Positions 6,701-51,079 of a DNA stretch of 64,000 nt are shown in pieces. Both the position numbers and the translations under genes were made by a program. Source of the DNA: Arctopsyche grandis. Lineage: Eukaryota; Arthropoda; Insecta; Trichoptera; Hydropsychidae. The stretch spans positions 253,001 through 317,000 of the forward strand of contig NC_135366.1 of the NCBI RefSeq assembly GCF_051622035.1. The letters run 5' to 3'. Positions within the stretch are counted from its first letter, which is position 1; every line of letters begins with the position of its first letter. The notes under the pieces are model-generated. The model saw nothing but the letters and a program-made list of their open reading frames with translations. It made no database searches and was not told where the DNA came from.

Positions 6701-9700
6701 ACAAATTTTCTATCCTATTTATAGGTAGAATACACCACAAGCGAAATTGAAAACAGAACTTATTTTTATCAATAACTAGTGGTTTTACCCGGATTTGCTC
6801 TGTATTTGTAATATTAACCTCTTAAACATGGCTAATCCAATAGTAAACGTTCATTTGTTTTTTTATTAAATTATTTGAATTGGAAAAAAATGATATTTAA
6901 CGACAGCCGGCTGAAATAGGAATCCGGAAGCTAAACTGAAAAAATAATCTGGAACCGGAACTGAAAAAAGAATCCGGAATCGGAAATCGGAACTGAAATC
7001 AGAATCGAAATCGAAAACCGAATCGATATCGATGGCGTCATCGGTTCGGTGATTATTCCGCACAAAGCGATCTCGCAAACGTCATAAAAATCTCGATCAT
7101 GGAACATGTGGCACTCGAAAATTCCATCCATCGAGAGTTAAACACACGAACTATCATACTAACGAGAACTCAAATTCCAGATATTCGATATTCGCGATTT
7201 GTGTAGCAACGATTGTCGTGCGCGTAATCAAAATGTGCGAAATATTTTGTCGATGACGTCACGGATTCTACGGACGAAACGCCAAACCTTACATAGTTTC
7301 TTTCGAAATGATATATTAGATTCCTCTTCTTCGACCAAAAATGTATATACATAGTTAAGTATATTCAGATTAATGATTAGCGATAGAATTTAAATTAATG
7401 TTTTGTTTTAGCGCGAGAGAATATCACAGGCAACAGGAACCGAACCGGAACTCAAAAAACGGCTTGGTCCAAGCTTTGAATTAAGACCAGAATTTAAAAA
7501 AAAAATACTGAAACGAAAATACTGCCTATGATTTATCATTGGGGTTTAAAGCAGCAGAAATAAATAACGCTTTGGTTGCGAATCAAAAATATTTGAAATG
7601 GAATATTGTCAAGTACTTGCATATGTGTATGTACATATGTACGTGAAGATTAAAAATAACGCACCCTTCGGGTTAGCGGTAATTTCAAGTTGAGATTAAA
7701 GTATTAAAAATAGAATAGCAAGAGCAGGATGGATGCGAGAATGGATGCACCTCAGCCTTGTGTGGCCATATTTCATTTTTTTTATTTTATTTTTCCCAAG
7801 GCATTTTAATTGAAAAGAGAGAACAGAACAGATTTAAATACATATGTAGGTACATGTATGTAGGTATATCGAACGATTAAATTAGGTCGAGATCCCATTG
7901 AAAATGTTTGTTTAAAATTATCCGGATGCCAAGCAAGACAAATCAAATCGGATTCTCAAAAGCTCGTTTCGACGAATGTTTACTCGAGGGTGGCCACTTC
8001 AAACAATGCGATCTTGTCAAACAATCGATCTACATATTATATTATTTCGGATTTCTCGCACATTTCTCTACTCGTCAATTTAATTCAATACATACATATA
8101 CCTACATACATACGTACGTATCAATTCAAAATACAATACATATGTAGATATTATATTGCTTATGTATGTAAATGGGTTTATACAAAAACCGAGTTTAGCC
8201 GGTCTTCTGTATTACCATAATATTTGTAAAAAAAATATTCTAATACATAGACGCCAAATTAAATCCGATAAAAACTGTTCAATTGAAACTATTACATTTC
8301 ATCCATTTTAAACATTCGCATTTAATTCACCACTATGAGTTTACATAAATTGTAAATACAAGATTTGTACAATTGGGTACGTGTTTTCTCTGAAAGAAGG
8401 GATACTCATATTGTAAAACGAATTCGGATTATTAAAATTTTTAATAATGAAAACGAAAGCCCGAAATCGATGTTTAGCGTCTAACCTTGTCAAATACCAT
8501 ACGTACAACAGTTAATGTTTTTATTTAAAAGCAAGTCTCCAAAATGACATTTAAGATATTAAAAATATTACTACTACATACACATACATATGTACATATA
8601 TTGCATATACATATTTAAATACGTGAGTACATTAGGCCGGAGCGAAAAATGCTAAATTTGGCTTTCCAACAACGGACCCAGTTGAAAACTTTTCTAGTAC
8701 CACAGAAACGTTATAATTCTAAAACGTAAGTATTTTTTCATACATCTCTTAATCAGTCAAAACTTATCATAATCGACCCAAATAAACGTTTATTTACTTT
8801 TTAAATAGTCAAAAATCGAAACTACTTCTTTTATTTTATTTTACATAGATATATACCACGAAGGCCTAACAGGTAGACCCCAATGCACTTCCTAGAAAAT
8901 TAATTACAAACATTGCAGCATTTTTATTACACAAATCGCTGTATTTTGAGAGGCTGAAGAACACGAAATTAACAATCAATGAATCCATAGAGACATCTAT
9001 GGATTTACAATTGTACATAAATCAAATTCAGATATTTGTGCAGGGCCCACGTGGGGGGCCTGGGATGGGAAGCCCCCCCCCAGATTTGAACGGGACTATC
9101 CACGTTGTTTAATTATATTATTATGAATTAAAATATTTAAATACTAAACCAACAAACCAAATATCTTAATAGATTTTTTAAAATTATTTTACTATTAATT
9201 TTAGTGATAAAAATATATAAATAAAAAAAATGTTTAAAAGAAATAGTTAAAATTCATATACACTCATTTTTTTAATATAATACACCCCCCCCCCCTTAGA
9301 AAGTCATTCCTTAATGGTTAAAAAAGAAATGACGTCCCTAATTTGTGACATAGCGTGTAGGATGATTTTTGCCAATTTGATGGAGGAACCGTTTCAACAA
9401 TGAAATCAGATAAATTGGCAAACTCTGATAAGAAACGATCGACTTGGAGCCACAAATATCCAAGTCTGACCAGCAGTATTAAATATTAGCACGGGATCGA
9501 ACCTGATAACCTCTCGAACCTGATAAGCCCACGTTTTTTACAAGGTTTTCCACAATTTTCCTTGATACGACGCAAGTTTTCCACTAAGTTCGTCGATGAA
9601 AACCCAAAATTCTCGTTTGTCGCTCCGGCCTAATGTTCCACAAATATATTTTGGTATAAATGATTTCCTTTTTAATCTCATTTAATGCATTTAAAACATA

Positions 9701-18700: not shown

Positions 18701-21700
18701 ATCAATGCGTTTTGCCAGTGATGACGTATGGATGTGAAACTTGGACACTGAACGCCAAGATGCAAAATAAAATCCAATGCACTCAAAGAAGTATGGAACG
18801 CTGTATGCTTGGCATAACGAGGAAAGACAGGAAGCGGAACACGTGGGTGAGAAATATGACAAGGGTAGTGGACATAGTGAATAGAGTGAAGAGATTGAAA
18901 TGGCAATGGGCGGGTCACGTAGCTAGGAGGATGGACGACAGGTGGACAAAAGAAGTGCTTGAATGGTACCCGAGAGAAGGCAAAAGAGTAAAAGGAAGAC
19001 CGCAAGGAAGATGGGTGAACGAAATTAGGAAAATGTGCGGAATGAGATGGATGAGTGTTGCGCAAAACAGAGACGAGTGGAAGCGTGTTGGAGAGGCCTT
19101 CATCCAGCAGTGGATGGCGAATGGCTGTAAATGATGATGATGATGATGATATAGATATATTATAGATTACAAAAACACGTATAAATTTGGTTGAAAATGT
19201 TCGTTAGGTCATACATTTTATAGGATTATCTAAATATCTAAATATGGATAATAATCATATTTAATTGATGCATATTATTATATGTGAATTCCCAAGGTTA
19301 TCATGCGTTGGCGCGTCTCTACACTAATGTATGTAAAATATACATAATATTGGATAAAACCGTATACCGAAAATTACAGACACGAAAAGTCGCTCATGGA
19401 ACAAAATGACATAATACAAATATATATTATATGAGAGATAATGAGAGCCTATAAAGCAAATTTTATAAAATAAAGTTATAGGCGTTTAAACAATTAAAGT
19501 CTGACAAAACGAGTGGGTGGCGGAAAGTCGAACATATAAGGTTACTACCTATTAAGCCTCACCGTCTTCAAAAATTTACAAGCGTTTATTACGATTATTT
19601 TTCACCATCGAACTGTCAGAATCGATTTAAATGTCCATTGTTGACCAAACCGCGCAAAATGACAAAGTTTCAAAACGATCGAAAGACTAGGAATAGATAC
19701 TGAATCCTTTGAGAAGTCAAACATAGAAAAGCCTTGTAAAAAATATAATCTGTGTCTAAAGTTGATCAAAAAGCAGTCCTTACATCATAAATTGGGACAG
19801 AAATTAATGCTAGTCAATAGTTAGTTCATCGATTTTTCATTATTTATAATATGTTATGACCCGAAATACATTTACATACGATATGTACTGCCCGAACAGG
19901 CACTTAATTAATTTCGGATATGATATACAGTACATATGTCCAATTATTGTAAGTATGGGTTAAATGAAAGTGGATTCATAATTCTAGATACGTTTCCATA
20001 AGTAGAATTTACATATACAGGTGTGTATAAAAGTTGGAATAATGCATATTTCTCAAAAAATGTGAAATGTTCGTATGTATAATTTCATTCGTCTTTGTAT
20101 AATTTGTAATTTAATTATTAATTTAATTCATTCAATTTAATTTGTAATTTCTATAATTTCATTCGTCGGCCCTGCCGAGAATCGCGTCACCCAAATATCC
20201 GAATATACATACATATGTATGTACATAGGTATATTCCGTATATATGTACATACACACATATGTACATAGGACTTGGACGATTTAGCTACCGTAGAACATT
20301 CTAAATACATATGTACCTTTAAACCAGTGGTTCTTAACCTTTTCAGTGAGCCGCACCTCTTTGAATCTGAAAATATGTTCCCGCACCCCCTTGAAAAATG
20401 AGTTTTGAAATCTTTAATTTAGAAAAATACATAATAACAAATACAAGCTTTTTTTTCTTAGCGCACAGATATGCCACTTGATAGGACACTCCTAACAAGG
20501 GCTTTTGAATTATTGCGCCACATAATTTTGTGATTGTACCACTGGCATTAAATCGAGCCTTCTTTGACTTCGAGATGTTCAGACTATGAACTTCACCACC
20601 ATGCACATTGTTGAAATGTTCTAACAACTTTGATGGTTTAAGATTGGAGTTTGAAAACATCTTGGAACATCAGATGCATTGAGGTCGGTGTGTACCATAT
20701 TTTTCTGTTGTACAAGTGAATCCGAAACCAACATAATCGTCTTTCCACTAGCGGTTTTTTTTAACATGGAGGGGTTTACTAAAGTCAATTAAATAATAAT
20801 TAGAAAGAACGTATAAAATAATACTAATGTACTTCAAAATCTTGAGAGAAAAATTCTTACGTTTGTATGATTATATCCTATTCGGGCTTTAATCACTGAA
20901 CAAATTAAGTATGTATTTGTTTCTGCTTTAAAATGGTAGATAACGTTTTGCAATCGAACTTTCGTGTGTGTACACATGCTAGTCTCAACAAGTTTTTTGC
21001 TATCTATCTATCTATAGTTTTTTGCTATCTGCCACTGTCACAAAAACAATTGTAAACAGTATACCAGTGGAGACGGCGGTGTGCAAATTCTGAGAAAACT
21101 GTCTTTATTATTTGCGAGAAATGAGGAGAGAGCTTGAGGCGATATCCTCCCATAAATTATATTATTTTAGCTATAGTTACCCAAGCGCTTTCGTCACGAA
21201 AAAAATTAGCCGATGTCATCGAATATTAAAATAGTTTTCAAATATCACAAAACTAAATTTATTTTGTTAGTAACGCCTCCCGCACTCCCGGTTAAGAACC
21301 ACTGCTTTAAACTGTCAAAATTTTTCAAAACACGCAATGGTTATCTTATTTAGCAAGGTTTTGATCCATTTTGTTTTCATATTGAACAATTAAATATATT
21401 AAATATTAAAAGGTATTTGAAAAAAATATTGTATTAAATTATTGTAAAATTATATTGTAGCGTGGACGTGTAGATGGGTTTCTAGGATCGGAGTGAAAGA
21501 CGCAGTAGTAATGATAGAGGTACATAGTTTATTCATCCGTCGGCCCGCCAGCTCCGAATGACCCTCTTCGCACCGAGAAATCATTGGTCGATGGGTCGTG
21601 AGACCTTATTGGTATATGTGTTACAGTGAAAGCATATTTCAAGTGAAAACATATTTTCACCAATTCAAGCAGTGAAAATGTATCAAACAATGAATTTTAC

Positions 21701-24700: not shown

Positions 24701-27700
24701 GAATCTGAAGGGGCTGTTTATTGTTCAAAGATTGTAAATGCATTGTTAAAGGTTTGCCGAACCTTTTTTACAAAGCATTTATCCGGCCCCTTCAGATTTC
24801 GGGCTCTACTTATGACATAAATGTCTAATATATTCTGTACGTATGTATGTATATTATAAACTACAATCAAGTGTACATAAATACGTACATCAATGATGTC
24901 TCCGCTGAAAAAATCGAATGATTGTGGACAAGAAGATGGCAATTTAATTCAATAGGGAAAACTATTAAAATTATATTTATACATATATTGGCAAAAAAAA
25001 GTAACAACGCAGCCTTCGATGGAGTCACGAACATAATGGGAAATCCCAGTATTGTTTGTGTATAAATCAGTCGAATAAAAATTGTACGAATAAAAATCGT
25101 AGACAGAAAATGCAACACGTCGAGGTTGAATTTATTTAATTAATTGAATTAAATAAATTTTAATTAGTTGAATTAACTTAATTATCTAGCATTCAAGTCA
25201 AAAGTTATCTTCAGCGATACGTAAAAAGGGGATACGCGAGGCTAGTCGATCACTAGAAGGATAGATAAAGCTAAAATAAATAATAATAAAAAAAACACAT
25301 TTACCTAGAACTTGATTGAAGATTTTGTCGAAATTAACTTCGTTCTTCTTCTCCAAATATTTGTGCATCACACTGCGAACACTGCAACAAAACATAAAGC
25401 ATATTATTATCTAAAGTTGTGGTTCTATTCAACAAGTTGGATGTAAATCACTAGGTGTCGTGGGTAGTATTCCGCGCTAGTGACTGTAGATGTACAATAA
25501 TTAGCGCTAGGCGCGGTCAGTGTTTGCGCGATATGTGTTACACTAAAAATATTGGTTATTAATACACCAATTATATGTATGTAAAATATCTTCTGGGATA
25601 TGAATCGATCAAAACATAATAATAATATGTAGATCACAGTATTCAATAGTTTTGCATATTTATCTAGATAAACCCAACATATTTCTTACATAGTGGGTGT
25701 TTAGGTTTTTCGTGATGAAATTGTACTAGTGTAGTTTGTAATACATACTAATAATTAGTGTAAAATTCACGAACAAAATTTATAAAATAATTTTATACTA
25801 TCAACGCTGACTGTTTAATATGAATAGATCGTGTCGGTTACTGTTGTTGCGGTACGCCACGTATACATTACGGAAGATATGAATGTGACATATAGAACAT
25901 ACTAAAGAATATTTTTCGTAGAGCTGTTTACGTTCAGTTGCTAGCGGGAGATGTGCAAGTATAAACGAACTGTTATACATATATCTTTAAATATGCACAT
26001 ATTTAAGTATTGTTTTATATATTTGATAGTGGAATATTTTACTCGTGTACCTATTGGTAGTCCTCATATGTATATTAAAAATAGTATAATACTTTGTTTA
26101 GCCGTTGATATTTAATAAAAAGTAACCGTTATAAACAACACGAATCGGTTGAACATGTGTTTGGGATAAACTTAAACAATGGTGTGGTTACAGTTTCATG
26201 TTTCATTACTGAAAACGTAATTGAAGACTTTCTAAGAATAAAACAAAATATGTACATATATAAGTATGTATGCAGGTTCATGAAGCCTCCCATGCAATGT
26301 TTGGCGAAATAAACGGAAATAAATAATGATACATTAATACCATTGAGCCATCTCAGCGGTTGAGAATAGAATAGATAAATATGTAGGTGGTTTCATTGAG
26401 GTGAACTTGAAATCAGTCAAGTTGGTTAACTTTTGACCTGAACAGAGCGAAGCATACATATGTATTGACAAATTGACACGAAAGTCATGAAAAATCATAA
26501 ACAATAAGAAGACAAACTGTATGGTACAATATGTATGTACATATGTATGTTTGAATGTACATACATGTGTAGGTAATTGAAGTAGCGATACGAGTCGAGT
26601 GCGTGGGTGGCTTTTTATGGGTTCGTGGGCGAAAGATAGAGATCGTAAAATAAGAAGGGTGGAAGAATTATTCCACGATTTTTATTATTTCCATGATGCA
26701 ATCGGATTTACAGCAAGATTCCGATACGACATTGCAATTTCACTTCGCCACTATGTTTCCGAACTTTAATGTTCATCTAACACTCCCTAAGCCTCCTTAT
26801 TCTGAATCTGAAATGTTATTCGCTCAGAAACGTTGTTCGTATGTATTATTTAATATAATATAAATATAATTTCTGAAAACCTTATTTAAAACAAAACAAG
26901 AAACGAAATGTCTTTCTTAAACTTAAAAGGTTTCATTCTTCATTTCTTTCTATATGTTCGTTTTCTTTTTAGTTATCATTTTACTGTTTAATTTTTTTAT
27001 CTCTGTATTTTCTTTTATTTCGTCTTTTTTTTGTTTATTTTTCCTCTTTTATTTTAATTTTATTATTATGATCTTGAATGTATAAATAAGTGAATCAAAC
27101 AAGGAATATGGGAATTCGTATGAAATATTAAATGTATATGACATGAGAGTAAATGAGTGAAAAAAGTAGTTTAAATGAGTTGCAAAGGAGTGGTAGAAAG
27201 GCGAGTATGGACAGCTAACTGTCATCGCTCTGATCTGATACAAGATTTCGATGTAAATTTTATTCAGTTCGTTAATGAACTTGAGTCCTCTAACTTCATT
27301 TCGTATGCTTACTTCGATGTCACCTAACCTCCGTATTTCGGTAAGGATTCGGTGATTATTCCGCAAAAAGCAATCACGCGCACGTCACTAAAATCTCGAT
27401 CACGGAACATCTAGCACCCAAAAACTCCATCTATCCCACGCGAAATATTGTACTAACGAGAACTCGAGTTCCAGATATTCGGTATTCGCGATTTTTGTCG
27501 AGCGCGTGATCGCAATTTGCGCAATAATCCGTTTACCGTCGGTAAGATATCAAAGCAATCCTCCCAAGTTTGTTACATAAAAATTCCTTCAAGAAACCTA
27601 CATATACATGTATGTATATACATATTTACTACCATATTCCATTCGATCATCTTTCCGATTCGACTATTATCAACTGTACATACATAGTAACGGTTATCAA

Positions 27701-32800: not shown

Positions 32801-33099
32801 ACAGTTCTCGCTGGAGGTGGAATCTTATTGGAATCGAGTCGGAATCTTCTCTTTTTTTACATACCTCTTGCAATCGACTTGGTCATGAGACAAAGTTTGG
32901 GTTTTCAAACTTTGTTACTAGCCCCTTCTTACTTCACTTTCGATATTTTCGTCTGACGAAATTTGGGTTCTTTTCCGCAATCTTCCGATCGTTTTCAAAC
33001 TTTGCCATTTTTATTTTTAAATCACACTATGTATGATTAATTTTAATGCATAAATAAACATCGACCGAAATCTTTTTTCAGCGTAGGTGCATTCTACAG

Positions 33100-33733
33100 G
33101 GTAATTGGATTATTAGTCACATTGCGGTGGTCACAAAGACAATTTTTTGCCATTAAAATCGCGAATACGCAATATTAGGCACTCAAGTTCTCGTTAGTAT
33201 TGTAACGTAGAGATTAGGTGAGTGGCGCTCGTGGACTGATGGTTCACGACCGCGGATCACCTGATCTCTCGTTCCCGCCAAAAAGGCCTCCACGAATGAA
33301 TCAGCCCTATGCAACGGCCAAAGGCATCGTCTGACTCATCGACCAATGATTGTTGAGATATGTATGTATGTGTACTGTGTCCAGCGAGTATAAATATGGG
33401 GCGTTCTCGGCATGGAATTCCCTGCGAGCAGCCGCCAGCCCGCACCACAACATCACCGCGAATCGGATCCCATATAATTCGCTAGATCGATAGGCATGGA
33501 GTAAACTCCATGGAACTATCTATAAAATATTACCCACTACTACATGGAATTCATTCCAGCCCGGACCGCCGCCAAGAGAGCACGAATAAACCGCTACTAC
33601 CCATCTTCCTGCGTCTTTCTCCGATTCTGGAAACCCCCCCTTTACGCCCACGCAACAGTATGATGGACTTTTCGGCTGCCAGATGTTCCGTTATAGATAT
33701 TTTAGTGACTTTGTGACCAGTAATCACCGAACC
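33100..33733 (-). mobile_element. 9-bp-TSD MITE family, copy 3, interrupted by a solo LTR
   Basis: In the minus direction it reads GGTTCGGTGATTACTGGTCA ... CCATCATAC, then the LTR, then ATACTAACGAGAACTTGAG ... AATCCAATTACC. The target duplications are ATTCTACAG (33091-33099) and ATTCCACAG (33734-33742), 8 of 9 bases. The two halves together match the uninterrupted copy at 48781-48974. Confidence 0.85.
33201..33657 (+). mobile_element. Solo LTR (probably Ty3/Gypsy class) inside MITE copy 3
   Basis: 457 bases with ends TGTAACG and CGCAACA and a 4-base duplication GTAT (33197-33200 and 33658-33661). It contains TATAAATATGGGGCG near 33390, a CGAATAAACC polyadenylation signal near 33582 and TGCGTCTTTCTCCGATTCTG, giving the expected promoter, R and U5 order. 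No internal coding region remains. It is about 155 bases longer than the copy at 44251 because of an extra stretch, with partial duplication, near 33420-33570. Confidence 0.85.
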
Positions 33734-33742
33734 ATTCCACAG

Positions 33743-35386
33743 ATACTATTTATCACTCACGCTGGCTATTTTTTTACAAGACTATTCTATGTTTTATTAC
33801 AAGCCTCATATCAAGTTGCTTTCGCTCTTTCGTCTGACGAAATTTGGGTTTTGTTAAATTTGTAAATAATGGTCACCTTATCGACAATGCATGTATACAT
33901 GTACTAAATAAATCTTCGCAAGCTTACGGAGAGAATTAATCATCAATATTGATTGCTATAGATCCGAAATTTGAATTCAACCTATTGGTTGCAATCGGTC
34001 GATAAAATTGAGACCAGATAAAATGTATTTTATTCGTCTAAAATACTCGGGGGAATTAAATTCCCAAAGGGGTTTGTTGATAAAATAAAATAAGATGAAA
34101 ACAAGAATCAAAATAAAATAAAATTAGAAGAAAAAAAATACAATAAGATGTATTCGTCTTACAGTATGCAGGACCGAGGAAAAGGGTCGGAGAGAGAACA
34201 AATTACCGGAGCCCGGCTTCTTTTAAGGGCCTGATCCGAAATGGTAAGAAAAATATGTCGACATAAACAGTCAAGTCCTTTTTTTTTTAGTCACTAAATT
34301 AAATTTTCACTCGGTACTTACATAAATACATTTGTATGTAGAAACGCGTAGAAAAAAATTAATACGATATCAATCAGAGTCTAAGTCGACATCAAACCGG
34401 GTTTTGTTTAGTGAACTCCACAGCCTAGAATAACTCCTCACTGATAGCAAACAAGAAACTGCAATATATGTTATTTACCAACTCTTATAATTTTTTTCGC
34501 CTTATATTTCTCCTTTCAGTCTGTAACGTGTCCAACTTCAGGGTAAAATATTTTATTTTAAATTTCCTTCCAGTCCTGTTGAATCTTAAGGTCTGACCGC
34601 ACTATACGACGATGCACTGCTGCAGAGCCGCCAAATATTGTTTGCATGAAATTGTATGAGATATGTAGAACGCACTACTAGAGTTGTTTTTTGTACCAAC
34701 TTTGACGTGTCGCGTAGCGTCGCAGCAACGCACTGTCGCCTAGTGCGGTCGGACCTTTTAAGTTAAATGCAGCCTGTATGTTTCCAACTAGTTTCTTAAT
34801 TTGATCAGATCGACACACCAGAAGTCATATTCTTAGTATAACGAGAAACCTACAGGTAAAAGGAATGCCACATAGTTATTTTAATATTTTCATACAAATA
34901 AAAATACACTGAAACGATTAATGTCTTTTATTTAAAAAAAAACCTAATTTATAATTACATAAAACTTATTTGAAATGTCAAAAAGCTGTATTTAAATCTA
35001 ATAAATAGTGTTAACAACAATGAAATATAAAGGGAAAACGTGATACTTAATAATCATAGTAATACATATTTGAGACTATATTATTCTATTTATCATTTTT
35101 CTTCCTACATAAAAAATTAAAGTGTCATTTGAAGAAACAATTATTTTCTTTAAATTCATACAATATGATGTCAATATATTATATGTATGTACATACATAT
35201 ATGTATATCGCATTGTTTCATTATGTTCTACATACATATGTACATTTGTCTCATTTAATATTAATAAAAAAAATTATACAAATAATTAAGAAAATCACGT
35301 GATTAACACACTATCACAATTTTAACAAGGATGGTTTCTTCATAATGCATTTATGTATACAGAACACAACTATATTATATTTTATT
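33743..35386. other. Intergenic between Gprk1 and ABCB6
   Basis: AT-rich, with simple AAATAAAAT runs near 34080-34150 and one foldback MITE at 34589-34757. TTCGTCTGACGAAATTTGGG near 33829 repeats a stretch at 32947. No gene is seen. Confidence 0.6.
34589..34757. mobile_element. Foldback MITE with AGGTCYGACCGCACTA ends
   Basis: The left end AAGGTCTGACCGCACTA matches the right end in reverse complement (AAGGTCCGACCGCACTA) with one mismatch. Further pairing continues inward (GACGATGCACTGCTGC with GACAGTGCGTTGCTGC). The flanks TTA/TTAA allow a 3-base duplication of PIF/Harbinger type, but this is not decisive. Confidence 0.6.
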
Positions 35387-38300
35387 TTAATGGTGATGAC
35401 CATGGTTAGGTGCAGGAGGTGGAGGTGGAACAGGAAGATTACTCGCAACTGTCGGTTTCGGATTTTCCGTATCTGTATCACTCAACAGTGCATCTTGGCC
35501 ATTGCTATTTTCCAATTGTTGACTCCACATATCTTGATAAATACCATTCGCTTGAACTAAATCTTCATGTCTAAAATGGAAAAATATTGATATTAAAAGT
35601 TTCCAATACATATTCACATTGAAAAAAAGGGATAAAAATATAAATACCTTCCCCTTTCTACAATTTGTCCGTCTTTTAATACCATAATTTCGTCAGCATG
35701 AATGATCGTTGACAATCTATGCGCGACTATAAAAGTTGTCCTATCTGTGCACACACGAGCCAATGCAGCCTATTTGGAATCAAAAGTTTCATAAGTAAAA
35801 CCGAAAATAATAACGTATAAGTTAACATTATTATATGTAAATATAATATAAACCTGAATATTCCTTTCTGTTTTCGTATCTAATGCTGATGTAGCTTCAT
35901 CCAACAAAACAATCATCGGAGCCTTTAGAATCGTGCGAGCTATTGCAATTCTTTGTTTTTCGCCACCACTCAATTTTAAACCTCTCTCACCAACCTGAAC
36001 ACAAATATTTTACTATTTAAATTTATAACAAAAAAACATTCAAGGCTTTGGTAAATAAAGAAAGTCATTTCACCTGTGTATCGTATGCGTCAGGGAATGT
36101 TAAAATTTTGCTGTGAATGTCTGCGTTTTTAGCTGCAGAAATTACATCCATATCTGAAGAACCTTGTTTTCCATATTGTATGTTATATCTAACAATAGAG
36201 ACAATATTACGAGTTATAGTGAATACATTTTATATTGTATTATTTAGTATTTTTCAAACTTTAGTGCAGTTTCTTAAATGTATATTTGCGCGTACATACG
36301 CCAGGGCCGGCCCCATGATTTTCAGCCCCCCTGGACAATAACTTAAATTTGCGCACCCCCCCCCTCAATTTTATTAAAACATACCACACAATATAATTTA
36401 ATAAAATGCAACATAAATTTAAAAATAAACACAAATTAAATTAATTTTAACATCAATTACACTGTTCAACAGTGACGACTTTTTTTTGGTTCAGAGACGA
36501 GATATGACTTTTCTTATACATAACATAGATCTATGCCCAGGAAACACGAATCTGGTAATAAAAAATGTTAATTGGCTCGAGATTCGGAGATATATGTATG
36601 TGTTTTTTAAATTGCGCGATTTTTCTACATCTTGGTGTTGTTCGGTCGATGTCTCAAAATCTGTCAATTTTCTGTTCAAAATGAATATTGGAATCTATAG
36701 TCGGGTATTTCATCTTTCATTTGTAGTACTTTTCAGCTTTCAAATCTCTTTAAGTAGTCGTCCAGTTCAACTCTAAAGTCAAAAGTACGTATTTTCACTT
36801 GGGATTTTTTCCCACTGTTAATACTTCTTTATATTGAGTATTTTCTATTGTAACATGTTTATTGGGATAGTGTTCTGGCCACAATTTTTTTTCGTTTAAA
36901 AGGGTTAATTGGAAGTGTCCTGAATTGTAAATCGGTAAAATTGCGAGCTAAAAAATCGTACTAGTGGAGCATGTCGTTTCGTGTTATTATTCTACTAAAA
37001 ATATTAGTTTAAATTCTGAACAAAAAAAATGAATTTGACACCACTATGAACAGGGTCAGGGTCAATATCAGAAAAATAGTAAAAGTGCTCAATCGTGTTT
37101 TTAACATTATTTTCATTAATTCTTTAATTTTGTTTAAAACTAAAGGTCTTTGTTAGCGGCGCGCACACATACTATTAACAAACCGCATTAAAATTTGAAA
37201 AATACTGTATGTAAATGGAGAAAGGGGTATAAAAGTGTATACTTAATGCTATTGTTGAAAAGTACAGTATCCTGAGGAACGACTCCGATCGACGCTCTCA
37301 GAGATTGCTGGGTCACAGTCCGTACGTCTTGACCGTCGATGGTAACAGAGCCAGCATCCACATCGTAGAAACGGAACAATAGCCTAATAATAGTCGACTT
37401 TCCAGAACCCGTCGGTCCAACCTATAATTAGCAATTAAAAATAAATTACAACACTTTTACATATTTAAAAGTAAAATAGTAAAAAAGTCACTTACTAAAG
37501 CCACAGTTTTTCCAGGCTGAACGGTGAATGAGACATCGTTGAGAATGAGACGTTCTGGCACGTAACTAAACTTAACGTTGCGGAATTCAATTGCGCCCCT
37601 TCTGGCGAGGAGTGCCGGGGCTCCGATGGCGTCTCTGATATCGGAATTTTCACGGAACAAATCAAACATATTTTCCATATCGACGAAATTTTTCTGTATA
37701 CCTCTATAATAAAAAGAATTGAATCGATCGGACTGTATTTTTCTTTTAGATATGACCTATCAATACATCTGTATGTGTGTATATTAAAAAATAAATATAA
37801 AACCAACCTGTAAAACGTCCCAAACCAATTGAGTGGCACATACAATTGAATGATGTAACTTGAAAACAATACATAATCACCGACTGATAATCCTTCTTTA
37901 TAAACTATCATCTTCATGCAAAGCAAAGATCCAGCCAACAATCCTGTAGAAAATATTGACATTACAAATTGACGATTCTATGGGTGTGGGATAAGAGTTA
38001 TAATTATAATACATGTATTTACCAGCACACACTATGACATTTTGCATCGTGTTCAAAATATTAAGAGTAAACATTGAACTCCATTCTTCTTTCTGAAAAA
38101 AAAAATTTGTTTTGAATTAGTTTAGTGACAAAAAGAATTACACACAACGGTTGATATACTCACTTGATAATCTGTGATAGCCTCTTTATAACTCATGACT
38201 TCGTATTGTTCGGCTCCGTAATACTTGACAGTTTCAAAATTCAACAGGGAATCGACAGATCTGGCTTTCTGAGCATTATCCGCTAAATTCATACGACGTT

Positions 38301-41300
38301 GGAATTTCGTCCGCCATTCGGTAATGGAAATAGTCGCAACTGTAAATTTAAATTCGACATTTCACACCTGGTTTAAATTTAATATATTTAAATATGTTCA
38401 CACAAATAAAATTACCTATATATAAAGCCATAGTTGAAAATACGATGAGCCCAAACCACATATTGAAAGCCGAGACAAAGAAAATAATGGCAATTACGAT
38501 ATCTACGAGAGTCGGCACTATTGAAAAGAGTATGTAGGAGAGAAGATTGTTGATCGAATCGGTCCCTCGGTCCATCACACGGAGGACTTCTCCAGTCTTT
38601 CTACTAAGATGCCAACGCATTGGTAAACTGTGGAGATGTTTAAAGAGTTCGGTCTGCAATCAAACGCAACAAAATTATGAAATAGGCCATTTATTTAATG
38701 TAAATATATTTTTCTTCATTCATGTTATATATGTTTAAAGAAAAATGTATTTCGAGCAATTTCGACACATTGTTTAGTAAAAATGTTAAGGTTTGAATTT
38801 ACTTGTAATTCTCTAGTTGTATATTGCTGAACTCGAATCCACAGGAATGAGCGTAGATTATTCAAGAAGCCCATACTTCCAATTCCACCGCCTTGCAGGA
38901 ATTTAAAAAGTACGTATATTAAAATCAAATCCCATCGGAATGAAATGGGAGGAATTGATATGCTGTCGACTGAAATTTTAAAAATTTATTAATACATTTT
39001 AATCTATAATGATGCGTAACGCAACAAGGAGGAATTTCAATTTAATTTTACCTATTAACTTGCTGTAAATCGGCACGTACAGATTTATAATTCTTCCAGC
39101 TAGCAGTGTCAAAACACATATCAACACGCGAAATTGAAGAATCGAGTCATTTTGAGGCCACATAAAAGGTAATAGCGTTTTTATTTTGACAAAGGCGTTC
39201 CGAAATGCAGATCGATTTTCATCGTTTATCTGCAATTTTCAGAATAAAAGATCAATTGAAAATGACAATGAAAAAAAAGGAGGGATGTAATTTCAGTAAT
39301 AATGTACATATGTGTATGTCTGTCTGTCTCACCCTTGCCGAAAGCGGAGCTCTCGTCGAATAGCGATTGGAGTTTAACGAGTCGTAACTTTGTACGATTC
39401 CTGGAGCTTTTAGACCGAGAGTGAATATCATCATGCACGACACATATCGACCAACGAATAGAAACATTTCAAGACGGTCCTCCAAACTGTAAATGGATGT
39501 TTATATTATACTATATGTACTAGTGTTTTTACCCGGCTTTGCTCAGTATTTGTAATATAAACTGCTTAGACATGGTTAATCTAATTTATTTATTATCTTA
39601 GCTATCAAGCTAATTTAAAAATACATCTTAATTACTTAACTCTAAAATTTATAATTAACTTATGTATATGTACCGTTCGTCACAGAGGTGTCTCTTCGCA
39701 CCTCGCAAGAATGCATCCATGGTCTTAGCAGACCTGATGCACTCAGGGAGGGCATTATACCTGAGCACACCCCTAGCTGTCTTATTTTTTTTCTTACTCT
39801 ACTTAAAACTAGTTTGTCCTTATTTCTAGTATAAAAACTATGTTTATCTCTTATATAATCATCAAAGTACTTAGGCATTAACATATGATCTAACTTAGTA
39901 AACAATTTATTAAATTTATTTGAATATTCATTTGCTTTTTTTATTAAATTTAACGTAACGGATTCCACCACCCAAACCTTACATAGTTACATACGGAGAA
40001 ATGTTATAAAAATAGAAGTGGCTTTAGGCGTTATATTGCTGTCAAGTGAGGATTGTCCACAGACATTCCTAAATAATTTTAGAATCAGTCGTATTTGATG
40101 CTTGATGCTCGACGTATGTCCGATAAAAACTTTTTTGTTTGTTTATATTACTCGCAAGATGGGCAAGTGCATCGTTAAAAATTGCACAATGCATTCATAA
40201 ACACACAATAAACAACATGGGATACATTTTTTTATAAGTGGATTGATCTGATTATACTATGTGCGTTGTAGCGTAGTTATGGAGACATACCGTGTAATAT
40301 TGACACAATTTATTTATTCGTTAAGGCCCTTCTATTATTATGGTGTATACGTGTAAGAATTTGTGTATATATGGATGGTGTACATATATGTTTATATAAT
40401 TGTCTTTGGCCAGGAAGGTGCATTGGCTTTACCTGTTAGGCCTTCTTGGTGTAAATTAAATAAAAAATAAATAAATAAATAACATTTCTCAAAGTACATA
40501 CATAAAAAGATGTATTAGTTGTATTATATTGCATTTGTCAAATTTTATTTTATATATTGGCTTAGACAATTATTATAAAGATTATCAATTCGTTGTTTTG
40601 TATCAAGTGCACAACAAAAATGCATTTAATCTAGACAAACAATTTTGACACATAAAAAAAATAGTAACCAGAAGGTACCTAGTTTGAGAGAAAACCTTTT
40701 TATGGATGCGGTATTTTTTGCTTATAAATATACATACATACATACATATTCGTGTATGTATTATATGTATGTATATGATATGTACATAATTGAACGTCAT
40801 TAAACTATAATATATGTATGTAGCAGCGGTCAACAGCATTCACATACATATGTATATAGTTGAAGCAGCAAGTATTTTATATTCAAATATTTACATATTA
40901 ACGATTTACCTCTTGATGGAATTTTTAAATCTGCAAATGATTTGAACTTTATAACGCTAATGAGTCGATGATAATTGTCACACTTGAAATAAATACACAG
41001 CGTTGAAATAAATAAATAAACTAAAATAATATATGAAAAATACTATATTTCCTGAAAAATGTTTTGGCCCCCCGAACTGAGCCGTGCGATAAGAAAAGTT
41101 TCGGGACAAACTGCTAACATCGACACATTTCAACCCAAGGGTAAATTATTTCATTCAATCAACACTCGAATCTTATTTAACGCACAATATTTGTGATGAT
41201 TTACATCCATAGATAACGTTTGGACAGAAATCATTAGAAAGTCTATGTATGTACAAGATGAGCTCGTTTGATGGTACAGGATTTTATTACATAAATAGGA

Positions 41301-43282
41301 CATAAAGTGTAAAACTCACGTTCTTAGATGCCACCACCATCCTTCTTTTTTGATGTTTACGAACGAGAGATTTTCAGCGACGAATAACAGTGTCCAAAAT
41401 AGCAATAGAACGAAACCATGTCCTCGTGGCGGAACAGACGGTAACAAATAAAGTCTTTCAAGTCGCATCAAATATGCAGAAAGTGGAAATATCATTATAC
41501 TCATCACTAATGACAATATCTGGAAAAATAAAAAAGGGTAAAATCTACGTTAAAGGTTTAAGGTTTAGTATTAGCATAAAATAAAATGTATTTTTGTGAC
41601 AAGTACCATGTAGCCGTAGATGTGACCGTCTTTGAATACGTACGCTTGCAGAAAAAAACGAGTTATTCCCAAAACAGGTATGAAGAATGTGAAGAATAAT
41701 TGCACGCCGTACAAGCGAGCGCAGTGGACTTCCACCATCTCTGTTGCATATCTGAAATATCATATGGTTCTTTCTGGTTTTATATATATATTTTATTTTA
41801 CATGAAAGAAATTACACTGACATATTAGTTATAAGGCGAAAAGCTGATTCCGACTTTAAAACAAAACTAAAGAGGATAATTTCATTAGAGTGAGTCATAC
41901 ATTTTGCATCACCTCAGCATAGTCTCTGAAATTCATTGAATGTTCGAAAATTGATACATAAATTAGGCGACCGTGGAGGCCAGATAATATCTCCGAAACC
42001 AGATATGACATGTTACGGGAACATTTTTCAAATGAAATTTTATGCAATCCAGTTGTCTTGTTCTATTAAAATTCGTAAAAAGTTTAGGAATTACGCCGAG
42101 TAAAATGATAGATGTCCAATAGATTTCGTTTGAATGAATTATTTAACGGTATAATGCAAAATTTTTTATTATATGTACTATGTATATAAAAACGGACGGG
42201 ATTTGCGGGGACGTGCGAGTGCACAAGTATGGAGATTTCAAAAAAATAGATTTTAGAATTATCAAGAGATACTATATCGATTTTAATTTCTTTTCTGGTT
42301 TCGGTTCCGGTTCCGATTTCAATTCTGGTAACGATTTAGATTTTTATTTCAGTTCTGATTCCCAATGCCTATTTCAGTTCCGGTTCCATATTTTAGTTTT
42401 GATTACAACATTGTCATCGAAATCAGTCGGTGTTAATCAGAACGTTACATACACATCTGAAACTTGTTACTGTATAGGCTCTGGTTATGGTTAAGGTTAC
42501 AGTTCGCTATTGAGTACGATTGCAATTTTCTTTTTAACTGATTTATTATTGTCTCGGTTGAACATCAAACTTAAGCTGTAATTCGAAACTCTGTTATAGC
42601 TAAAATCCACGTTGGTGTATTTTGAAATGAAAAAAAAATTATCAATACAGTAGATAGCACCATTTATCTTATTAAGTAGAAAAAATGTCAGTTCCGGGTC
42701 ATTGAAATCAGTATTTAGAAACATGAAACAAGTTACATAAAAATGTGACTCTACAAAAAAATGAATGTTACTATGTACTTATTATATAAGGTAACACGAA
42801 TTGTCATGATCCAATCCTTGTAGTTTTCTTTTTTCACTAAAATGCGAATAAATGTTCATTATTGTTTACAACTTTTGTTTAAAATTAGTTCAAATATCAA
42901 AGCTAAATCTTCACTTTAATGGAGAACTAAATAGTGGGTAGTGAAAGTAATCGGCATTTGAAGTTACAAAAATGATAATTCGCATTTGAAAAGTTGAAAA
43001 CAATAATGAACTTTATTCGCATTTTGGTAACAAAACTAATGAAGATTGGATTACATTGGATAGTGAACATTAGCTAATTCATTATAATTTTATACAATAA
43101 TAATTCAGCGACGGGAGGTGGGAATTAAATGATTACCTATGGTACATCACAACTTGCATGGTGCCTAGTATTAAGATAAAACCGCCGATGACCGAAGCGC
43201 ACACAGTCTCCATAAAGCATTGCGAAATTCCGTGATCCACCCATACTTCGTTCAAAGTGACGTTCGGCGGGCAGTATAACAT
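35387..43282 (-). CDS. ABCB6: ABC transporter ABCB6 / HMT-1 type half-transporter
   Basis: Sixteen exons (minus strand, 5' to 3'): 43137-43282, 41607-41751, 41320-41519, 39333-39486, 39052-39229, 38803-38969, 38416-38653, 38164-38339, 38023-38092, 37808-37943, 37496-37703, 37243-37421, 36074-36188, 35854-35994, 35648-35769, 35387-35570. Phases agree throughout and give 852 residues, close to human ABCB6 (842). An N-terminal five-helix domain ([20 protein letters not shown]) is followed by a six-helix ABC core with [14 protein letters not shown] and [10 protein letters not shown]. The nucleotide-binding domain has Walker [11 protein letters not shown]-loop VVPQDTVLF, signature LSGGE, Walker [13 protein letters not shown] and H-loop VAHRLS, all intact. 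Known: homodimers move porphyrins or phytochelatin/metal complexes across mitochondrial or endolysosomal membranes. The C-terminus ends in a proline run and HGHHH. The 1.8 kb intron 3 and 1.05 kb intron 12 carry repeats. Confidence 0.96.
36300..36370 (+). repeat. CAGGGCCGGCCCC terminal motif in ABCB6 intron 12
   Basis: CCAGGGCCGGCCCCATGATT, then CAGCCCCCCTGG and GCGCACCCCCCCCC, resembles the tip of DNA transposons with CAGGGCCGGCC ends. I found no matching opposite end in the intron, so only one end, or a fragment, remains. Confidence 0.35.
39521..39975 (-). pseudogene. LINE remnant in ABCB6 intron 3
   Basis: An ACTAGTGTTTTTACCCGGCT head (39521) is followed by a minus-strand frame at 39660-39971. 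It contains [17 protein letters not shown], then [20 protein letters not shown], and [12 protein letters not shown]. This resembles a degraded CR1/Jockey ORF2 C-terminus. No complete domain survives. Confidence 0.45.
40395..40480 (+). repeat. SINE/LINE 3' hairpin module with AAATA tail
   Basis: GGCCAGGAAGGTGCATTGGC followed by TTTACCTGTTAGGCCTTCTT matches the SINE tail at 1719-1762, and ends in AAATAAATAAAT. It sits in ABCB6 intron 3. Confidence 0.6.
42280..42420. repeat. TTCCGGTTCCGATTTC-type minisatellite in ABCB6 intron 1
   Basis: Degenerate units of GGTTTCGGTTCCGGTTCCGA, GATTTCAATTCTGG and CAGTTCCGGTTCC run for about 140 bases. They are reverse-complement relatives of the array at 6905-7035. 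Confidence 0.5.
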
Positions 43283-43917
43283 CTCGCGGCCTGGAAACAG
43301 AAATGCAATAAAGTTTATCCGAACAGCTATTAAAGTTTATCACGCCTTCGAGAATGAGTACGTATTGTTTTATTCGAACGACCGCACTCGTTTACATACG
43401 GTGTATTAGGGTTAGTGAGTGGTGAATTTAAAATTTGAATGTGCGTATTACAATGAAATACATATGTAATATGAATCGAAAATATCGCGGATCAAGTGTG
43501 TTGATGTTGATGGAGGGGGTTTGGTTATGTGTGTGAATTGATGCCATTCGATCGTTTTGTCAGTGATGATGTATCGATTGTAGTGTGATTGAAAAATACC
43601 GGCGAGCGGCGAACGTCAAACGCAGAGCGGACGCAATACACTACGCAAGTCACTATTCACATCACTGACAGCTGATCGCGCAAATCGTGCCCAAACACTT
43701 TCGTTCACGACCATTCACTCGATGCTGATGCTTTCTTTTTAGGGAGATAAGGGTTCAATATAATAACTGCTGCCCCTTATTCTCTTCAGGCTACCAAGGG
43801 GTTGCAGCTCGTCGCAAATAGTCGTGGAAGGGCACGTATATTTTTTATGTCATATTTGCATATTAAATTTTTTTTTATAATCTGATCATTTCTCAATATT
43901 TTTGATAATTTCTACAA
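43283..43917. other. ABCB6 upstream region
   Basis: This stretch holds the presumed ABCB6 5' UTR and promoter. CpG density rises near 43590-43700 (GGCGAGCGGCGAACGTC). A short GGCACGT-containing tract follows. No TATA box or other gene is recognised. Confidence 0.4.
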
Positions 43918-44053
43918 TGGGGCCGTCCACACACAAGATATCAACTAACGATATTTACTGAATCTAGTAAATACCGTGCGTTCGAACGCAATGCTCTCAT
44001 ACTCTCATACCTATCGAAATATCGTTAGTTGATATCTTGTGTGTGGACGACGC
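43918..44053. mobile_element. Near-perfect palindromic MITE
   Basis: The left arm CGTCCACACACAAGATATCA ACTAACGATAT (43924-43954) is the exact reverse complement of the right arm ATATCGTTAGTTGATATCTT GTGTGTGGACG (44019-44049). The arms extend outward with mismatches to TGGGG/CGCCA. The loop is 64 bases. AATG on both sides is a possible target duplication. The high arm identity suggests recent movement or gene conversion. Confidence 0.7.
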
Positions 44054-44174
44054 CAATGTATGTACATACATTACTTTTTCTTCACGTGCCATGTCCTCCC
44101 AGAACGTCGGCAACTAGATGTCCCATTCATACTTTGTCAACGGCTGCTCGAAATTGTGCTTTGGTGCTAAGGTC

Positions 44175-44646
44175 GGTTCGGTGATTACTGGTCACAAAGT
44201 CACTAAAATCTCTATAACAGAATATCTGGCAGCCAAAAAGTTCATCATACTGTAACGTAGAGATAGTTACGAGTGCTAATCAGCTGATCTCTCGTTCGCG
44301 CAAAAATGTCCTCACAGAATGAATAAGCCGTATGTAACGGCCAATAGAATCGCCTGACTCATCGACCAATAGTTTATTACATGTCTATGTATGTGTGTTG
44401 CGCCCAACGGGTATAAATATGGGGCGCTCTCGGCCTGGAAACCATTCCGACCTGGAGCGCCGACGAGAGCAGACGGATAAACGACTTCTACAACACTCCT
44501 GCGTCTTTCTCTCCGATTCTGGAAGCCCCTCTTCACGTCCACGCAACAATACAAACTAGAACTTGAAAGCCAAATATTGTGTATTCGCGATTTTCATGGC
44601 AAAAATTGTCTTTGACCACCGCAATTTGACGAATAGTCCAATTACC
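44175..44646 (+). mobile_element. 9-bp-TSD MITE family, copy 4, interrupted by a solo LTR
   Basis: It starts GGTTCGGTGATTACTGGTCA and ends GAATAGTCCAATTACC. The flanking nonamers GCTAAGGTC and TCTGAGGCC agree in 6 of 9. It disrupts the LINE remnant described above, which continues on both sides. The solo LTR at 44251-44548 sits between CATCATAC and ATACAAACTAGAAC. Confidence 0.82.
44251..44548 (+). mobile_element. Solo LTR (probably Ty3/Gypsy class) inside MITE copy 4
   Basis: 298 bases, ends TGTAACG and CGCAACA, with a 4-base duplication ATAC (44247-44250 and 44549-44552). TATAAATATGGGGCG is near 44411, GGATAAACG near 44475 and TGCGTCTTTCTCTCCGATTC near 44500. It is the same family as 33201-33657, and here it lies in the same direction as the host MITE. 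Confidence 0.85.
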
Positions 44647-48771: not shown

Positions 48772-48780
48772 ATATTCTAC

Positions 48781-48974
48781 GGTTCGGTGATTACTGGTCA
48801 CAAATTACTCGTCACAAAGTCACTAAAATCTCTATAACGGAACATCTGGCAGCCGAAAAGTCCATCATACTAATGATAACTATCATAGTAACGAGAACTT
48901 GAGTGCCAAATATTGATTTTCATGGCAAAAATTGTCTTTGTGAACATCCCAATGTGACGAATAGTCCAATTACC
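48781..48974 (+). mobile_element. 9-bp-TSD MITE family, copy 5 (empty, best preserved)
   Basis: 194 bases from GGTTCGGTGATTACTGGTCA to GAATAGTCCAATTACC, with a perfect 9-base duplication ATATTCTAC (48772-48780 and 48975-48983). The centre reads CCATCATACTAATGATAACT ATCATAGTAACGAG. Left and right halves are imperfect inverted repeats (both outer arms carry GGTCACAAAG-like and AAAATC blocks). This copy defines the family. Confidence 0.85.
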
Positions 48975-49022
48975 ATATTCTACATATATGTTTTGCCGCT
49001 TAAAATAATTTTTTTTTAATAT

Positions 49023-49493: not shown

Positions 49494-49700
49494 ATATTCA
49501 AATTTCCTTCATTCAGAGATTTCTAGTTTGGAGCCAAAAGGAGCCCGGCAATGACATACCTGGAGTATTAACCAGATGTCTGATTTTATAGATGACGTTT
49601 GACATTGTATTCTATTCAAAATAAATATTTTGAAATCTCGGATGATAAATGACAAAAAGAAAAAGCTTAAATTATTTTGAAAATTGCAACAAAAGAGAGA

Positions 49701-49763
49701 GTGTGTGTGTGTGTGTGTGTGTGTGGGTTGGCGGCAGTGGCGGCAGTGGCGGCAGTGGCGGCG
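49701..49763. repeat. GT microsatellite and GGCGGCAGT minisatellite upstream of Rpn6
   Basis: GT units run from 49701 to about 49726. Three and a half GGCGGCAGT units follow at 49730-49763, about 50 bases before the Rpn6 start codon, so both are probably in the 5' UTR or core promoter. Confidence 0.85.
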
Positions 49764-49810
49764 TAGGCAGCGCAACGCAGTGTGTGTCAGTGCATGACTG
49801 GCGCTTCAGC

Positions 49811-51079
49811 ATGGCGGGCGCCGTAACGATGGAGTCGCGCACGGACCTGCAGGCGCTGTCGAGGGGGTCGGTGGGGGCGGCCGTGGGGGGCGCAGGCAAG
49901 GGGGGCGCGGGGGCGGCGGCGGCGCGGGACGAGGCGGTGCGCGAGCAGGAGGCGCGGATCCTGCGGCTGGCGGAGCGGCTGCGCGCGGAGAACAACGCCG
50001 AGGAGTTGGCGCAGCTGATTCGCTCGGTGCGCCCCTTCCTCGGCGACATCAGCAAGGCGAAGGCGGCCAAGATCGTGCGCCACCTCGTCGACTGCTTCCT
50101 CGACCTGGAGGCGGCCATCGGCATCGAAGTGCAGCTGTGCAAGGAGTGCATCGAGTGGGCCAAGACCGAGAAGCGCACCTTCCTGCGCCAGAGCCTGGAG
50201 GCGCGCCTCGTCGCGCTCTACTTCGACACGGGCATGTTCGCCGAGGCGCTCCTCCTAGCCGGCACCCTGCTCAAGGAGCTGAAGAAGCTCGACGACAAGA
50301 ACCTGCTGGTGGAGGTGCAGCTGCTCGAGAGCAAGACGTACCACGCGCTGACGAACCTGAGCAAGGCGCGCGCGGCGCTGACGTCGGCGCGCACCACCGC
50401 CAACGCCATCTACTGCCCGCCGAAGCTGCAGGCGGCGCTGGACCTGCAGGCGGGGGTGCTGCACGCCGCCGACGAGAAGGACTTCAAGACCGCCTACTCC
50501 TACTTCTACGAGGCCTTCGAGGGCTACGACAGCGTCGACAACCCCAAGGCGCTCACCGCGCTCAAGTACATGCTGCTCTCCAAGATCATGCTCAACCAGC
50601 CCGAGGACGTGCAGCAGATCACGGGCGGCAAGCTCGCGCTCAAGTACGCCGGCTCCGACATCGAGGCCATGAAGAACGTGGCCAAGGCCTCGCACAAGCG
50701 CTCGCTCGCCGACTTCCAGACCTGCCTCGAGAACTTCAAGAAGGAGCTGGAGGACGACGTGATCGTGCGCGCTCACCTCGGCACGCTCTACGACACCATG
50801 CTCGAGCAGAACCTCTGCCGCATCATCGAGCCCTACAGCCGCGTCGAGGTCGACTACGTCAGCGAGTGCATCAAGCTGCCCATGCCGCAGGTCGAGAAGA
50901 AGCTCTCGCAGATGATCCTCGACAAGAAGTTCCACGGCATCCTGGATCAGGGCGAGGGCGTGTTGATCGTCTTCGAGGAGGCGACCGTCGACGCGATGTA
51001 CGAGACCGCGCTCGAGACCATCCACCACATGAGCAAAGTCGTCGACACGCTCTATCAAAAGGCGAAAAAACTCTCGTAG
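49811..51079 (+). CDS. Rpn6: 26S proteasome lid subunit Rpn6 (PSMD11)
   Basis: A single uninterrupted frame of 422 residues, the same length as Drosophila Rpn6. From about residue 65 on it is unmistakable: SISKAKAAK-like [75 protein letters not shown], then the PCI domain with [40 protein letters not shown] and a final [14 protein letters not shown]. Known: Rpn6 clamps the lid to the 20S core and is essential for 26S assembly. Start: ATG at 49811 gives MAGAVTME, like the family start MAGA. Odd: residues 10-45 are an Ala/Gly-rich stretch in place of the usual FERAQAL helix, there are no introns, and codon use is extremely GC-rich compared with every neighbour. An AATAAA signal is at 51272-51277. 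Confidence 0.97.

Follow-up and report, generated by a model that had tools for sequence, protein, structure and literature searches.

Solo LTR insertions at one base of a MITE in Arctopsyche grandis and their probable basis in ordinary target preference

MITE copies A and B and the target motif

The window considered here is a 64,000-nt stretch of the genome of Arctopsyche grandis (Trichoptera; contig NC_135366.1, positions 253,001 to 317,000). Two copies of a miniature inverted-repeat transposable element (MITE) within it, A and B, are split at the identical base by solo long terminal repeats (LTRs) of one Gypsy-type family, each with ATAC duplications and in opposite orientation relative to the MITE (Table 1). 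The position of insertion in the MITE very probably follows from the ordinary integrase target preference of the LTR families, because a motif taken from insertions outside MITEs places the three sites used in this element at ranks 1–3 of 181 positions. A preliminary description of the sequence had reported the two splits by one LTR family, the 4-base ATAC duplications, and the opposite relative orientations; the coordinates and flanks were re-read and agree. The break sequence that it gave for both holds for copy A, whose arm is CCATCATAC, but not for copy B, where the left arm is TTCATCATAC and the right flank ATACAAACTAGAAC. The plus strand is the direction of both window LTRs, with MITE A on the minus strand (33100–33733) and MITE B on the plus strand (44175–44646). 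Genome-wide matches were sought in the 475.7-Mb assembly (189 contigs), which includes the window; loci are cited by L numbers.

Insertions of the window LTR family (LTR-1) and of a second family (X) outside MITEs mostly have 4-bp NTAN duplications, chiefly RTAY. The motif read from them is WWN-RTAY-NWW. For scoring across the window, 35 distinct non-MITE insertions (16 X, 19 LTR-1) were combined in a symmetrised matrix. In the uninterrupted MITE copy C, the three sites that are used in the genome take the first three ranks, identically with a 36-site matrix. Among window positions, the ATAC of its first central unit falls in the top 0.35%, the ATAG of its second unit at 0.55% and a CTAT between them at 0.65%, with the next-best positions at 1.5% and then 3.2%. 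At the empty sites of B and A, the center ranks 1 of 157 (0.78%) and 2 of 160 (0.36%), respectively. A shorter and more diverged subfamily, to which the LTR of copy B belongs, behaves similarly elsewhere: of 32 distinct outward 3' flanks (36 read, less two leading into the element and two duplicates), 26 have NTAN and 23 RTAY.

The mechanism proposed is a simple one. A high-copy MITE with 8–9-bp duplications would offer one or two 18-bp center units bearing ATAC, plus CTAT if there are two, and the integrases of several LTR families would prefer a weak palindromic, AT-rich WWN-RTAY-NWW sequence, cut with a 4-bp stagger. The remainder of the 170–194-bp MITE has few such sites, so that insertions would coincide at one base, or a few bases off, in either orientation. 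We infer that the motif is recognized by the integrase itself, and that subsequent recombination between LTRs produced the solo LTR with an ATAC on either side.

The center of the MITE consists of one or two 18-bp units, TATCATACTAACGAKAAC, with ATAC in the context ATC-ATAC-TAA in each; two-unit copies also contain CTAT. Intact copies had been noted in the window at 7043, 27346, and 48781, and all are present. The roughly 18 extra bases of the last (copy C) turn out to be a repeat of the unit, CCATCATACTAATGATAAC followed by TATCATAGTAACGAGAAC, and two-unit copies elsewhere read CCATCATACTAACGATAACTATCATACTAACGAGAAC or near it. A genome-wide search with one MITE arm gave 1517 first-look candidates, 40 of which were scored. 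The centers of 20 right arms, the best matches among these 40, picked by arm similarity regardless of center, were read: ten are empty one-unit copies, seven are empty two-unit copies, one has a family X LTR at CTAT (L121), and two have other structures (L109 and L124). Of the 40, the window copy and 19 further places, 11 of which are on contig C2, were left unread. The one-unit string CCATCATACTAACGAGAAC, with up to two mismatches, has 4794 matches in the genome, including single units of two-unit copies, against none for the control. Empty one-unit copies are thus common, and for the empty state the preliminary description was right in its alternative of a short MITE subfamily.

The element has the features of a MITE. 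It is short (170–194 bp, from A and B minus their LTRs and from C), non-coding, and present in high copy number, and its ends are weak inverted repeats (GGTTCGGTGATTA/TAATCCAATTACC). Its own target duplications are 8–9 bp long. Fifteen genomic copies were compared by their two flanks, allowing a shift of up to 2, and in 14 the duplications agree at 8 or 9 of the 9 bases; for the remaining copy (L112) no left end was found. Around MITE A the duplication is CTGTRGAAT, with 8 of 9 bases matching, and the flanks of MITE B agree at just 6 of 9. A 9-bp target duplication is a feature associated with Mutator-like elements, and its occurrence here suggests a Mutator-like source for the MITE. Another repeat (AATACACGGCCCCCTCAGGCT..) is found in L124 and in the left flank of L111, and in L124 the motif ATACTAACGATAACTA stands beside it.

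Both window LTRs begin with TG, end with CA, and have promoter and polyadenylation signals. They share TGTAACG..GCAACA and TATAAATA; the AATAAA of LTR A is GATAAA at the equivalent place in B. One LTR pair (L003/L039) bounds a full element of ~5.4 kb end to end, and an inner piece (L071) has a single open frame of 743 aa with gag-asp_proteas, RVT_1, RT_RNaseH_2, and RT_RNaseH domains. By the protease, reverse transcriptase (RT), and RNase H of this pol piece, the family is assigned to the Ty3/Gypsy type. LTR A is ~93–100% like copies of this family across two long stretches. LTR B is at most 94% like the other scored copies of its subfamily. Of the LTR-1 insertions read on both sides, 21 are distinct, and 20 of these have a 4-bp target duplication. 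About 120 bp in the middle of LTR A (window 33421–33542) are missing from the closest LTR-1 copies, whose matches end at query position 321 and restart at 444; a few other copies (L002, C2:28527948) match throughout. At L059 an LTR-1 solo LTR lies exactly at a GTAT immediately adjoining the start of an LTR of another family, z, and may have inserted into the target duplication of the z element itself. In the B subfamily, one LTR (L166) ends ~4 bp short of a MITE-like start (cggttcggtgat).

Table 1. Coordinates of the split and uninterrupted MITE copies in the window
Feature	Position	Strand	Remarks
MITE copy A, first half in MITE sense	33658..33733	-	ends ..CCATCATAC
Solo LTR of copy A	33201..33657	+	457 bp; TGTAACG..ACGCAACA; TATA box and AATAAA; against MITE
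MITE copy A, second half in MITE sense	33100..33200	-	begins ATACTAACGAGAAC
LTR target duplication GTAT, copy A	33197..33200	.	ATAC in MITE sense; low-coordinate side
LTR target duplication GTAT, copy A	33658..33661	.	high-coordinate side
MITE A 9-bp target duplication	33091..33099	.	1 mismatch to 33734–33742
MITE A 9-bp target duplication, opposite side	33734..33742	.	
MITE copy B, first half	44175..44250	+	ends ..TTCATCATAC
Solo LTR of copy B	44251..44548	+	298 bp; shorter, more diverged subfamily; with MITE; same ends as LTR A
MITE copy B, second half	44549..44646	+	begins ATACAAACTAGAAC
LTR target duplication ATAC, copy B, left	44247..44250	.	
LTR target duplication ATAC, copy B, right	44549..44552	.	
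MITE copy C, uninterrupted, two-unit	48781..48974	+	9-bp duplications ATATTCTAC at 48772–48780 and 48975–48983
MITE relative D, uninterrupted, diverged	27346..27535	+	end approximate
MITE relative E, uninterrupted, diverged	7043..7217	+	end approximate
Copy C, unit 1 ATAC	48867..48870	+	target-motif rank 1 of 181 positions in element
Copy C, unit 2 ATAG	48885..48888	+	target-motif rank 2; commoner two-unit form is ATAC
Copy C, CTAT	48880..48883	+	target-motif rank 3; equivalent place filled in L129, L103, L121

Center junctions across the genome

Insertion at the MITE center is repeated well beyond the window. A junction pattern, ACAATACTAACGAGAAC, with up to one mismatch has 159 matches in the genome, not all of them insertions, against one for a reversed-letter control. 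The 36 exact junctions (ACA followed by ATACTAACGAGAAC) were all inspected: 24 are with family X, five with z, three with LTR-1, and one with an LTR-like element designated V, which makes 33 in all for these three families and V. Among the rest, L013 and L207 are unclassified and L209 is MITE sequence without an insertion. X, LTR-1, and z were called LTRs on the basis of their termini, their 4-bp duplications, and copies that follow a purine-rich tract, and V, a single copy, was assigned by its ends and duplications alone. X and LTR-1 are found in both orientations, with 17 X copies running with the MITE and seven against it (two-sided p 0.06).

Junctions with one mismatch give a similar picture. 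Among the matches listed, 36 of 64 keep the ACA end. The eight one-mismatch loci read at length (L068, L072–L078) have LTR or LTR-like ends at the junction. In 14 more, of which 40 bases each were read, there are eight X, one X-like, and three other ACA ends (L216, L217, L221), besides an uncertain case (L219) and one of MITE sequence (L214). Two-unit MITEs are filled in unit 1 (L068, L074, L077, L078), in unit 2 (L025, L027), or in both (L032, L075). The CTAT site is filled in L129, which has MITE sequence to either side, in L103, where the MITE adjoins one side only, and in L121, of which one side was read. At the one control site used, an NTAN in the same MITE (GTAT in GTATTCGCG), none of 21 junction matches with up to one mismatch keeps the ACA end. 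Together with the motif ranks, these counts bear out the insertion-site preference within the MITE that had been proposed.

The 163-bp LTRs of the z family occur as inverted pairs (L032, L129–L135), which in L032 and L129 fill two target sites of one MITE; pairs such as L131, L132, L134, and L135 have no MITE within the short flanks read. A reading of L032 ("Z") as a palindromic hairpin element was rejected: two z LTRs face each other there, one per unit. Of 13 single z copies read, eight have a 4-bp duplication, which is NTAN in four.

Alternative explanations and insertion frequency

The two window LTRs are identical at 228 of the 297 bases aligned (77%), with 161 gap columns. The MITE arms of A and B are more alike (71 of 76 bases and 84 of 98, or 86–93%). 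Because the LTRs are less alike than the arms that flank them, A and B are two separate insertions, in one-unit MITEs. The alternative of one MITE–LTR composite, copied by MITE transposition and with the LTR inverted in one lineage, would account for the shared base and duplication, but is hardly credible given this divergence, the different internal lengths, and the opposite orientations; the preliminary description had likewise held that a single copied composite does not explain both. Further LTR families occupy the same base in other MITEs, and among 14 complete center inserts compared no pair is above 93.4% alike, although copying of a composite, or duplication of a segment, could still lie behind individual X pairs and L216/L217. 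The preliminary description had also raised replacement of the spacer. This could have come about through gene conversion or recombination involving the two ATACs of a two-unit copy, with the LTR taking the place of the 18 bp, or through recombination of one LTR in unit 1 with another in unit 2, with loss of the spacer. These ATACs do lie 18 bp apart, and both units are filled in L032 and L075, but both of those loci retain the unit between their LTRs, and plain insertion into a one-unit copy yields an identical structure. Because empty copies of that kind are common, the structure of A and B can be explained without loss or replacement of a spacer, and the suggestion, which is very improbable, was set aside as unneeded.

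A preference for the center of an imperfect palindrome had been proposed as well, and integration drawn by a cruciform or hairpin there would suit the location of the center between weakly inverted ends. Copy C, the one copy folded, is however quite ordinary in this respect (z-score -1.1 relative to shuffles, 26 of 200 of which fold equally well), and hairpin targeting was rejected on this basis. The sites used are 4-bp NTAN sequences, ATAC in either unit and CTAT beside it, with no single point of symmetry. A palindrome-centered preference is thus not supported, and a structural attraction of this kind is very improbable.

How often these LTRs insert at MITE centers was estimated from 78 distinct sites, 25 of X and 53 of LTR-1 and the B subfamily. 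The X sample began as 30 loci and four flanks, from which L106 (end differing by two bases), duplicated loci (L097, L099–L102), the query L079 and its near-copy L080 (flanked by the MITE on a single side), and L105 (the L087 locus) were left out; L095 is included by one flank. For LTR-1, duplicates (L004, L005, L050, L052, L053) and loci with a missing end or complex structure (L002, L049, L060/L061, L062) were left out, and 21 remain. Two of the 78 sites are between MITE halves (L068, L090), and one has the MITE center on one side (L103). A strictly site-specific retrotransposon, with most copies in one target, can be rejected, as these samples, chosen independently of the MITE, lie mostly elsewhere (75 or 76 of 78 outside MITE centers). 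The preliminary description had named randomness of LTR flanks with respect to the MITE as evidence against its proposal. In number this is mostly what was found, but the outside flanks share the target motif.

Several points weigh against target preference as the whole explanation. The motif is built on 35 sites. In copy A an unused site (ctaaaATATctata, ATAT) outscores the center; this may be a later mutation, most copies read having ATCT there. The z family, with its looser duplications, also inserts at the MITE center. The motif alone may also not account for the frequency: by the matrix the 4794 center units hold ~0.07% of the genome's target weight, and two or three of 78 sites were observed there. 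The chance of at least two in 78 is 0.003 if the true share is 0.1% and 0.04 if it is 0.4%; for at least three the values are 7e-5 and 0.004.

The MITE center could be a genuine hotspot over and above the 10-bp motif, with chromatin, bendability, or a host factor bound to the 18-bp unit drawing in the integration complexes of several LTR families. The frequency excess and the presence of z speak for this, and it is possible, if on balance unlikely. The excess rests on two or three events; diverged center units and LTR copies are counted as lower bounds or first-look candidates; the X query sequence was itself taken from a MITE copy; and none of the 32 B-subfamily flanks is in a MITE center. 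MITEs and LTRs may also share neutral regions where insertions survive, and the position within the MITE requires no extra factor. It is rather doubtful that the 18-bp unit is a spreading landing pad, drawing several LTR families some 10 times or more above the prediction of the 10-bp motif. If it is, a DNA transposon is spreading neutral retrotransposon targets through the genome.

Other window features and known systems

Elsewhere in the window, an RT frame at 11347–13365 stops at profile position 91, and a second frame at 18094–19134 restarts at position 93. Between them is a long interspersed nuclear element (LINE) on the minus strand (13671–16577), with a 968-aa frame including endonuclease and RT, and the region as a whole (11347–19134) looks like one LINE split by another. 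A gene for the proteasome subunit RPN6 (PSMD11) is found at 49649–51079 as a single uninterrupted frame.

With ordinary target preference as the preferred reading, the shared base and opposite orientations of A and B would both follow from it, and a possible extra pull of the 18-bp unit is the main remaining interest. More generally, same-base nested insertions that resemble site-specific targeting can arise from a weak integrase motif, given few good sites in the host element. The thousands of near-identical center units form a natural target library, in which the same short DNA is offered to several integrases, and target preference, orientation bias, and the survival of LTR insertions could be measured against a constant background. 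Among the titles and abstract openings found in the literature, none describes repeated LTR insertion into a MITE center.

The preliminary description had considered a preference of this type rare for LTR retrotransposons. This is at odds with Drosophila where, according to PMC3276498, palindromic target motifs extending past the duplication are reported for all 22 terminal inverted repeat (TIR) and LTR families analyzed. Closest to the present case are the Gypsy clades 412/mdg1 and Idefix/297 of the same source, which have a 4-bp duplication and an AT-rich palindromic motif longer than the duplication. Their motif centers on ATAT, whereas GTAT, ATAC, and CTAT are common too in the A. grandis genome. 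Here, unlike in those clades as that source presents them, the motif recurs in a high-copy MITE, which becomes a repeated landing place. Nested plant LTR retrotransposons, as described in PMC6911290, are similar in their non-random nesting and in having a palindromic motif at the duplication, with only a slight preference for longer palindromes. Their hosts, however, are LTR elements with broad preferred regions, while in A. grandis a MITE is the host and insertion falls on a single base.

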